A DNA stretch of 64,000 nt. Source: Dethiosulfovibrio faecalis (GTDB lineage Bacteria > Synergistota > Synergistia > Synergistales > Dethiosulfovibrionaceae). The position numbers were made by a program, and so were the translations under genes. The DNA is taken from assembly GCF_021568795.1 (NCBI RefSeq), contig NZ_JAKGUE010000006.1, forward strand, positions 1-64,000. Direction: 5' to 3'. Under the pieces are notes generated by a model, which was not told the origin of the DNA, did not search any database, and worked only from the letters and a program-made list of their open reading frames with translations. This document shows positions 49,710 to 52,251 of this stretch, piece after piece; position 1 is the first letter of the stretch; the number at the start of each line of letters is the position of its first letter.

Positions 49710-50789
49710 TCAACCTCTAGATTTATTTTTGGATTTAGCTAACTTTCGAGCGTTCTTTATCCCTCCGACCTCTTTGTACATGGAGGCGTTTTTCTCCGCC
49801 TCTATCTGTTTGGAATTCAAACCTTCATATCTTGCCTCTCTCTTCAGCTTCATGTAACTGGCAAGTCGATCGGGAGAAAGAGAACCTTCGTCCATGGCCC
49901 TACGAACGGCACATCCCGGCTCTCCGTTATGACTACAGTCTCTAAATCTACACTTTACGGCCAGATCCTCCACGTCCTCGAAAGCCCTTGAAAGATCTAG
50001 ACCCTCTATGCCAAGCTCCCTCATCCCAGGGGTATCTATCACGATACCTCCACCGGGCAAGACCACCAAATCCCGTCTGGTCGTAGTATGTCTGCCCTTA
50101 TGGTCTCCTCTTAAACCCCGAGTCCGGAGGAGTTCGCTACCGGCCAACCCGTTTATCAAGGTGGACTTCCCCACTCCCGACGATCCTATCAAGGCTACGG
50201 TCTTGCCTGGTGCCATATATCCCTTCACCGATTCGAGGCCCTCCTCGGTCAATCCGGACGAGACCAAAACATCGCAGCCGCATACGATCGATCTCAAATC
50301 GGAAAGCCTGCCTGATAGATCTTCACAGAGATCCGCCTTGGTCAACACGACCACTGGAATCGCTCCGCTATCCCAGGCGACGCCCAGATAGCGCTCAAGG
50401 CGTCTCAGGTTATAGTCGTTGTTCAGGGACATACACACGAATACGATATCGATATTCGAGGCCACTACCTGCTCCTGATTGGACGTTCCGGCAGCTCTTC
50501 TTATGAAGACGCTCTTTCTTGTCAATACGGCGTGGATAATTCCGTTTCCGGCGTCGTCGTTATCACGATCGACCATGACGAAATCCCCCACCGCCGGGTA
50601 ATCTCTCTGAGATCTAACCTCGAAGCGGAACTTCCCGGAGACTTCTCCCTTGATATCTCCTCTTTTCATGACTACTCTGTAAAGATCCCTGTATTGCGAT
50701 GTCACTCTACCTACGAAAAGCCCCGGGTAATTCGACGCTTCCTCTATCAGGCTCGAGGTGAGCCCCAATTCTTTCATATCTATTTTCAT
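49710..50789 (-). CDS. rsgA: Ribosome small-subunit GTPase RsgA
   Basis: 359-residue circularly permuted GTPase that checks the decoding centre of maturing 30S subunits. An OB-fold N-terminus is followed by the permuted motifs VVLTKADL (G4, about 146), GSSGVGKST (G1, about 202-210) and DTPGM (G3, about 253), then a zinc-type C...H...C region (CRFRDCSHNGEPGC near 281-294). The C-terminal tail is basic. ATG at 50789 has GAGGAGGT 7 nt upstream. It is preceded by an unusual leader (see 50797-50892). Confidence 0.95.
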   Translation of the reverse strand: MKIDMKELGLTSSLIEEASNYPGLFVGRVTSQYRDLYRVVMKRGDIKGEVSGKFRFEVRSQRDYPAVGDFVMVDRDNDDAGNGIIHAVLTRKSVFIRRAAGTSNQEQVVASNIDIVFVCMSLNNDYNLRRLERYLGVAWDSGAIPVVVLTKADLCEDLSGRLSDLRSIVCGCDVLVSSGLTEEGLESVKGYMAPGKTVALIGSSGVGKSTLINGLAGSELLRTRGLRGDHKGRHTTTRRDLVVLPGGGIVIDTPGMRELGIEGLDLSRAFEDVEDLAVKCRFRDCSHNGEPGCAVRRAMDEGSLSPDRLASYMKLKREARYEGLNSKQIEAEKNASMYKEVGGIKNARKLAKSKNKSRG

Positions 50790-50892: not shown

Positions 50893-51104
50893 AAAGACAA
50901 CCTCTCCTTGTTTTTAGTTTTAGCCTGTCCCTGTACACAGCAGAAGCATATCAATAGGCCAGACAAAAAACATCATAGCATATCAAGGGGCCTCACAGAC
51001 AAAGAAAAGGAGAAACTCGAGGATAAACTCGAGCCCCTCCTGAAAGAGCGCATGACTTTCAACCAATCACAGAGAATCTCTAAAGGGCATCTCTAAAAAC
51101 GCTA
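50893..51104. other. Intergenic region without a convincing gene
   Basis: A 62-codon plus-strand frame (50908-51096) ends in a charged helical stretch (LTDKEKEKLEDKLEPLL) but lacks a ribosome-binding site and a family; it may be a gene remnant. The region also holds CTCGAG-GATAAA-CTCGAG and flanking AGGGGC/GCCCCT inverted repeats near 50983-51035, and the candidate rsgA promoter on the minus strand. Confidence 0.4.
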
Positions 51105-51305
51105 CTCCTCGGAGAGGTCGCTCCGACGGAGCCCGTTCGAGCCCATATTTCCGACCTGCCGTCGTGTAGTACCAATGGGGCGATAGGACGTCGCCCCAAG
51201 CCGAGGGGCACAGGACGTGCCCTCCGAGGCGGTCCGTACAAAACAGGCCGGTCGGAAATATGTTTGGGCGAGACAGGGCGAAGTCGGAACGATCTCTCCG
51301 AGGAG
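51105..51305. repeat. Large symmetric structured element (candidate ncRNA or miniature element)
   Basis: Nested inverted repeats span 201 nt. Outer stem: 51105-51120 with 51290-51305 (16 bp, one G-T), then after one mismatch 51122-51127 with 51283-51288 (6 bp), 51131-51134 with 51276-51279 (4 bp), and 51144-51156 with 51250-51262 (13 bp, perfect). Inside are two hairpins, 51177-51183/51191-51197 (loop TAGGACG) and 51206-51211/51217-51222 (loop AGGAC). The loops share AGGAC, and GGAC can pair with GTCC at 51232-51235. T-runs and A-runs (TAAAAAC 51094-51100, GTTTTTA 51318-51324) flank it symmetrically. No protein is encoded. Which strand is expressed is unclear; wobble positions slightly favour plus. 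Confidence 0.7.
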
Positions 51306-51332
51306 ACTCGGATGTGGGTTTTTAAAGGTACC

Positions 51333-52238
51333 CTACAGTATTCCCCTATTGTCTCCGTATCTGTTCAGGCTTTCCTCTGGCAAGAAATCGTCTTCGATCT
51401 CCCTTATACGGTCAAGCCTTACCACGTCGGCGAACTCGGCAAAGTCCATGGACAGGGACACCTTGGAGTCGGACAACCCGTTCTTTCTCACATCGGACAT
51501 GACGTCCAGCATGGCCTTAGCCCCTGCGAAAAGGGGGGTAACAGGATACATTAGATACTTGAACCCCATCTGCTCGGCCATGGAAGGACTTACGAGAGGT
51601 GTTCGGCCTCCCTCCACCAGGTTCAGCATCAGGGGAACAGGGACCTCCTCTACCGCCCTCTCCATCTGATCCAACGATTCCAAGGCCTCAACGAAGACCA
51701 TGTCCACACCGAGATCGGCCGCCCTTTTGGCACGACTAAGCGCATCCTCGAGGCCATTGACCGCCACGGCATCGGTCCTGTAGACGATCAGAGTAGATCT
51801 ATCCTCCTGGTCTCGGGCCGACATAGCCGCCCGAAGCTTGCCCATCATCTCATCCTCCAAGATGACCGCCTTTCCGGACATATGCCCGCATCGCTTCGGT
51901 ATAACCTGATCCTCCACGAACAGCCCGGCCGCTCCGGCCCAGATGTACTCTCTAACGGTCCTGTCCACGTTTACGGCGTTGCCGAAACCGTTGTCTCCGT
52001 CTCCTATTACCGGTATATCGACCGCATGGACCATCCTATAAAGCTGATCCCTCATCTCACCGAAACTGAGGAGTCCGACGTCCGGTTTGGCAAGGAGAGA
52101 GGCCGCAGTTCCATAGCCGGTATGCTGTAAGACCTCGAAACCGGCTATCTCGCAGATACGGGCGCTCAATGCATCGAACACCCCGGGGGCTACTATGATA
52201 CCGGGACGTTCCAGCCTCTCTCTGAGCCTTTTTCCCAT
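51333..52238 (-). CDS. Isocitrate lyase/PEP mutase family lyase (PrpB-like)
   Basis: About 301 residues, TIM-barrel of the ICL/PEPM superfamily. The catalytic loop KRCGH (115-119) marks a C-C lyase rather than a mutase; GDGDNGFGN near 79-87 binds metal, and VEGGRTPLVS lies near 210. Members cleave 2-methylisocitrate, 2,3-dimethylmalate or hydrolyse oxaloacetate. It is the last gene of the GntR-TRAP operon. Start ATG at 52238 or TTG at 52244. Confidence 0.85.
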   Translation of the reverse strand: MGKRLRERLERPGIIVAPGVFDALSARICEIAGFEVLQHTGYGTAASLLAKPDVGLLSFGEMRDQLYRMVHAVDIPVIGDGDNGFGNAVNVDRTVREYIWAGAAGLFVEDQVIPKRCGHMSGKAVILEDEMMGKLRAAMSARDQEDRSTLIVYRTDAVAVNGLEDALSRAKRAADLGVDMVFVEALESLDQMERAVEEVPVPLMLNLVEGGRTPLVSPSMAEQMGFKYLMYPVTPLFAGAKAMLDVMSDVRKNGLSDSKVSLSMDFAEFADVVRLDRIREIEDDFLPEESLNRYGDNRGIL

Positions 52239-52251
52239 CCCCAAGACTCTC

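Follow-up and report, generated by a model that had tools for sequence, protein, structure and literature searches.

An IS5-type MITE of Dethiosulfovibrio as probable carrier of a TwoAYGGAY-class RNA with putative CsrA-binding loops

Introduction

What is the structured DNA that separates an RsgA-like gene from a PrpB-like gene, both on the − strand, in Dethiosulfovibrio faecalis? The window analysed here is a stretch of 64,000 nt (contig NZ_JAKGUE010000006.1, positions 1 to 64,000 of the forward strand), and a first-pass annotation of its sequence had described at this locus a 201-nt element of unknown class, open to three readings: a structured non-coding RNA, a miniature transposable element (MITE), or an operon-specific 3′ end. 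The first two readings hold at once, the element being best described as a MITE with structured-RNA cargo. The label 'unknown class', which the annotation had tied to the lack of any Rfam or IS/MITE match, falls, with matches found on both counts (RF01731 and an IS5-type MITE).

Results

Fold of the element

RNA folding of positions 51085–51325 gives a minimum free energy of −132.9 kcal/mol for the + strand (z = −8.1; 0 of 200 shuffles as stable) and −126.3 kcal/mol for the − strand (z = −9.8). The nested rod ending in two same-loop hairpins is present where it had been placed, with a stability that beats shuffles on both strands. In particular, AGGAC forms the loop of both hairpins, at 51185–51189 and 51212–51216. 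The suggested pairing of these loops with GTCC at 51232–51235 finds no support, the bases in question belonging to the rod and reading GTTC in most copies. The absence of coding potential stands: the ORF list shows just short overlapping frames, none filling the element. The hairpins and the neighbouring genes are as follows.

49710–50789, − strand: RsgA-like GTPase gene, named from its translation
51177–51197, + strand: hairpin 1, AGGAC loop, with a U-G closing pair in the window copy
51205–51223, + strand: hairpin 2, AGGAC loop inside CAGGACG
51333–52244, − strand: PrpB-like (methylisocitrate/isocitrate lyase-like) gene, named from its translation; its TAG stop (51333–51335) takes the element's last base

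Elsewhere in the window, a terminator-like 14-bp inverted repeat with a T-rich tail lies just left of the element, before the RsgA-like gene (51008–51041, − strand), and the start of a 16S rRNA gene lies at the window edge (1–193, − strand).

A dispersed repeat with transposon ends

A search of the same genome with positions 51085–51325 returned the window copy, about ten long copies at 84–90% identity, and many fragments. The repeat is present in all seven Dethiosulfovibrio genomes searched, with at least 40 near-complete copies in each of two of them (G003 and G004) and with copies at ~70–80% identity in a third (G006). The many dispersed copies found in the same-genome and Synergistota searches, which the first-pass annotation had proposed, are as for a mobile element. 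Genomes of other genera yielded just short, weak matches to the element, none of them strong outside Dethiosulfovibrio; phages, plasmids and viral contigs yielded no match. A lone pattern hit in Streptomyces was taken as chance.

End-to-end alignment of copies spans 249 bp, so the element occupies 51085–51333; the original extent (51105–51305) was too short, leaving the transposon ends outside its limits. The element is bounded by terminal inverted repeats, GGGCAYCTCTAAAAA; in G003, counts of such ends are 112 and 109, versus 11 and 12 for a reversed-pattern control, and an excess is seen in several genomes. Exact 4-bp target duplications flank 34 of the 74 complete copies, versus 6.2 expected from re-paired left and right flanks of these copies, and 58 of 74 show at most one mismatch; the commonest duplications are TAAA and TTAA. 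The features of the window copy are as follows.

51085–51333, + strand (the GGA-loop strand): complete MITE, 249 bp, from end-to-end alignment of copies; 4-bp duplications abut its limits
51085–51099, + strand: left terminal inverted repeat, GGGCATCTCTAAAAA, from pattern search and sibling copies; identical to one end of an IS5-family IS in G001
51319–51333, − strand: right terminal inverted repeat, reading GGGTACCTTTAAAAA on that strand, from pattern search
51081–51084: left target-site copy, TAAA, by the family-wide 4-bp duplication
51334–51337: right target-site copy, TACA, with one mismatch versus the left copy
51072–51084, + strand: probable left-end remnant of an older element, GAGAATCTCTAAA, and insertion target of the window copy; the extra TIR-like stretch occurs in G005 too, not in G001
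51106–51304, + strand: structured core (element positions 22–220), conserved, paired and covarying

Several copies are rearranged. Six loci (L008, L022, L024, L145, L229 and L233) have the ~200-nt core flipped with respect to the transposon ends, which recombination or template switching at the palindrome base would be expected to cause. Ends-only derivatives of 50–60 bp (L020:1501–1550; L176 near 2440–2520) resemble core deletions between CTCGGA direct repeats, and the L020 derivative seems to have a full-length orthologue in G001 (L126). Nested insertions, of the element into TAAA within an older copy's end, are seen at 51072–51084 and in the left flank of L003/L058. One MITE copy lies about 0.8 kb from a guanidine-I riboswitch of the same genome (83 bits; L002:632–727, + strand).

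An IS5-family insertion sequence sharing the MITE's ends

A 1298-bp insertion sequence in G001 has the same ends as the MITE (15 bp shared), with eight near-identical copies and a 4-bp target duplication in seven of the eight. This IS encodes a 348-aa DDE transposase of the IS5 family (NF033581, 281 bits; PF01609). Besides the G001 copies, there is one intact copy in G003, and there are remnants in G006; a search of the window's own genome for the IS or its transposase returned no match. The element itself has no transposase, is multi-copy and dispersed, has ends in common with this transposase-bearing IS, and generates duplications of the same length (4 bp). Because an IS matching it in ends and in duplication length (4 bp) occurs in G001 and G003 but not in the window's own genome, the element is, on these sequence features, a non-autonomous IS5-type MITE. 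Loss of the partner is common among MITEs. From the shared ends and duplication length, we infer that the 1298-bp IS mobilised the MITE. A search of the IS (L085) for RF01731, the RNA family described below, gave no match.

The core matches TwoAYGGAY RNA

A permissive Rfam scan matched the window core to RF01731 over the full length of the model (1–168) on the + strand, with an E-value of 0.005–0.008.

51124–51276, + strand: full-length match to RF01731 (TwoAYGGAY), 30 bits versus a threshold of 43 bits

The window copy thus falls below the threshold, and the element family reaches it: each of the 20 near-complete sibling loci examined from genomes other than G006 scores 43.5–60 bits. The earlier statement that the element matches no RNA class was therefore wrong. 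Copies from G006, a diverged species, are below threshold, with GGA often missing from loop 1. Among the 139 copies overall, 135 carry GGA in both loops, and CAGGACG is present in each loop in 132; AGGA is 99.6% conserved, versus 89% for other unpaired core sites and 80% for outer sites.

RF01731 was found in 2010 and described from human gut, gammaproteobacteria and Clostridiales (PMC2864571). In 2014, TwoAYGGAY was proposed, pending validation, as a CsrA-binding sRNA and one of the first such RNAs beyond Gammaproteobacteria (PMC4333381). The repeat of the CsrA-sequestering RNA CsrB is CAGGA(U/A/C)G (PMC7652899), a motif to which the loop sequence CAGGACG conforms.

Copies cluster at gene 3′ ends

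The median distance from a sense stop codon to the copy downstream of it is 15 nt, with 49 of 84 copies within 20 nt and with 46 sites between convergent genes. This clustering, together with the TTTTTA that comes after the rod on each strand, would fit a mobile terminator or mRNA 3′-end stabiliser to which CsrA is irrelevant, and the window copy contains a terminator-like site.

51297–51312, + strand: terminator-like hairpin with a U-rich tail, mutually exclusive with the rod base; consensus match only

Termination has no need, however, of two conserved AGGA loops or of the + strand bias described below, and the TA-rich target accounts for insertion close to stop codons. We therefore regard this explanation as unlikely, if the most serious competitor, while an additional terminator role for the element is plausible. 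The earlier reading as an operon 3′ end was right as to position, since the element extends into the prpB-like gene's TAG stop, and this position probably reflects the TA-rich 4-bp target.

At 51297–51312, TCCGAG on the + strand can pair either with the left-arm CTCGGA, as in the rod, or with a downstream CTCGGA, as in the terminator-like hairpin with its U tail. This alternative pairing constitutes an attenuator-like arrangement in copies of the window's own genome, G001 and G005, and is weaker in copies of G003 and G004.

The orientation of copies relative to genes shows a trend that is not significant (36 tandem sense versus 24 antisense, p = 0.16). Antisense-only copies may have more broken pairs (1.85 versus 0.85; p = 0.04 by permutation, p = 0.10 by rank test), in a comparison that includes one copy with 15 breaks.

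The core is under + strand-specific pairing constraint

Covariation, a check that had been proposed from the outset, supports the pairs of the element by compensatory change: 17 of 52 pairs are altered on both sides and 98.7% of cells are paired, a level reached by 0 of 500 shuffles, and sliding the partners lowers pairing to 35–48% of cells.

Compensatory change alone could also arise at the DNA level. A purely DNA-level MITE, its palindrome kept by template switching (quasipalindrome correction) and copy conversion without RNA function, would be consistent with good folds from both strands and with template-switch or slippage events that seem real, the core being deleted between CTCGGA repeats or inverted in some copies. 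Arm correction is, however, strand-blind. RNA from the + strand tolerates G-U and RNA from the − strand tolerates changes that appear as A-C, and mutation or arm correction should yield both equally. Among core pairs predicted from both strands, G-U outnumbers A-C by 213 to 103 (40:14 pairs, p = 5e-4), whereas in the transposon ends the counts are 84 and 98 (6:7 pairs); core substitutions show no strand asymmetry (G>A 138, C>T 133). Moreover, the AGGA loop bases, which have no partner to be corrected against, are among the most conserved, and the core fits an RNA family whose members were drawn from other phyla. We consider a purely DNA-level origin of the palindrome improbable.

Paired core sites have undergone 3.9 changes per site, versus 13.6 per site in the ends. 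When orthologous insertions are compared, pooled differences are 1.9% for paired core, 2.0% for unpaired core, 10.8% for outer sites and 8.6% for 60-bp flanks; upon removal of one pair with misaligned flanks and of the rearranged comparisons of one copy, outer and flank values are ~7.3% and ~5.5%. These tests use related copies and a parsimony-based tree analysis, and gene conversion among copies is a possible factor. The core is under a pairing constraint that is specific to the + strand, as for RNA-level selection, and that continues after insertion, since the core differs less than ends and flanks between orthologous insertions.

History and setting of the window copy

The orthologous locus in G001 and G005 contains short palindromes of the ends, with the core absent, so that neither genome shows an empty site there. 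Deletion between the two CTCGGA repeats that bracket the palindrome appears to account for the short forms of G005 and of C18:33543 in the window's own genome; the G001 short form has a different junction. An extra left TIR-like stretch is common to the window locus and G005 and is absent in G001, and is best read as the trace of an older copy that served as insertion target.

The strong fold at one locus could suggest an ncRNA gene present once in the chromosome or a 3′ element peculiar to this operon; both are refuted by dozens of dispersed copies, in this genome and six others of the genus, and by the orthologous loci in G001 and G005 that have ends without the core.

Four core pairs are broken in the window copy. 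Both flanking genes would transcribe its − strand, which lacks the GGA loops, and two weak promoter-like sites upstream on the + strand are consensus matches only. Given its low score and the lack of + strand transcription from either flanking gene, the window copy may be decaying.

Co-occurrence with csrA and a second MITE

All seven Dethiosulfovibrio genomes encode csrA. In a survey of 188 Synergistota genomes, RF01731 is present in 11, all 11 of which have csrA, versus 119 of 188 overall (raw counts, kinship ignored). In a second Synergistota genus (g20), the three RNA-bearing genomes have csrA, and two others (G055 and G056) have neither detected csrA nor detected RNA.

The RF01731 copies of g20 are 164–166 bp repeats with CCTAAATCCGCAG/CTGCGGATTTAGG as their ends; of eight examined, six are flanked by exact 5-bp duplications. 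The g20 loci L253, L261 and L264 and the related L255 pass the RF01731 threshold. With ends and duplication length that differ from those of the Dethiosulfovibrio element, the g20 repeat is, as judged from these features, an independent MITE. A further genus (g8; G018 and G035) has repeated matches to the hairpin part of RF01731 only. In G018 (L256 and L263), these belong to a separate 151-bp dispersed repeat, and a 118-bp tandem spacing is found nearby in L256.

A literature search returned no report of TwoAYGGAY as mobile DNA, and searches combining MITE with CsrA, IS5 MITE with noncoding RNA, and Dethiosulfovibrio with CsrA returned nothing on point.

Discussion

We conclude, with a probability of roughly 0.7, that the element is an IS5-type MITE with a TwoAYGGAY-class RNA as cargo, the copies of which constitute a putative dispersed reservoir of CsrA sites and local 3′-end hairpins. 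An IS5-family transposase acting in trans would have spread copies to TA-rich 4-bp targets, often stop codons. The RNA would be made when transcription enters on the + strand, many copies lying just past a sense stop codon. The + strand transcripts would fold into a rod presenting two AGGA loops, an arrangement that would match the pair of RNA-binding faces on the CsrA dimer, and binding of the dimer by the two GGA loops could allow copies to sequester CsrA or to mark 3′ ends for it. Expression of the core RNA and its binding by CsrA are predictions from sequence.

A broader proposal, which we put forward tentatively and at somewhat less than even odds, is that TwoAYGGAY is a mobile class: putative CsrA-binding modules captured at least twice by unrelated MITEs (IS5-type with 4-bp duplications in Dethiosulfovibrio; CCTAAATCCGCAG-ended with 5-bp duplications in the other Synergistota genus), yielding dozens of sites per genome. 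If so, transposition itself would rewire or titrate the global regulator CsrA. The RNA family and the MITE type were each already known; mobile spread of TwoAYGGAY RNA appears to be new, and suggests that regulator-binding RNAs can travel through genomes as transposon cargo. TwoAYGGAY as transposon cargo under selection, always alongside csrA, would tie a global post-transcriptional regulator to mobile DNA, and cultured hosts carry dozens of natural variants for direct tests of binding and function.

The element resembles IS5-family insertion sequences (NF033581) and their MITEs in its 15-bp ends and 4-bp duplications, which are those of the 1298-bp IS of G001, and differs from such insertion sequences in having no transposase and in having a structured core unrelated to the IS. 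The bacterial palindromic repeats (Correia/NEMIS, RUP and REP/BIME) are likewise small, dispersed, hairpin-forming and mobilised in trans; their ends and hosts differ from those of the element, and we know of none with a CsrA-type RNA.

The element has the same rod and the same two adjacent GGA-loop hairpins, on the same strand, as TwoAYGGAY RNA (RF01731, clan CL00106), and sibling copies pass over the full model. TwoAYGGAY has been described neither as a repeat nor as transposon cargo, whereas the element is multi-copy in Synergistota MITEs, with AGGAC loops and with a window copy that is sub-threshold. The sequestering sRNAs CsrB/CsrC and RsmX/Y/Z share with the element GGA in hairpin loops, the CAGGAXG motif and a host CsrA. 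The best CsrA ligands have six-base ANGGAN loops, whereas the element has five-base AGGAC loops on long hairpin stems; and whereas CsrB/CsrC and RsmX/Y/Z are sRNAs that each come from one dedicated locus and offer many GGA sites, the element has two putative sites per copy and many mobile copies.
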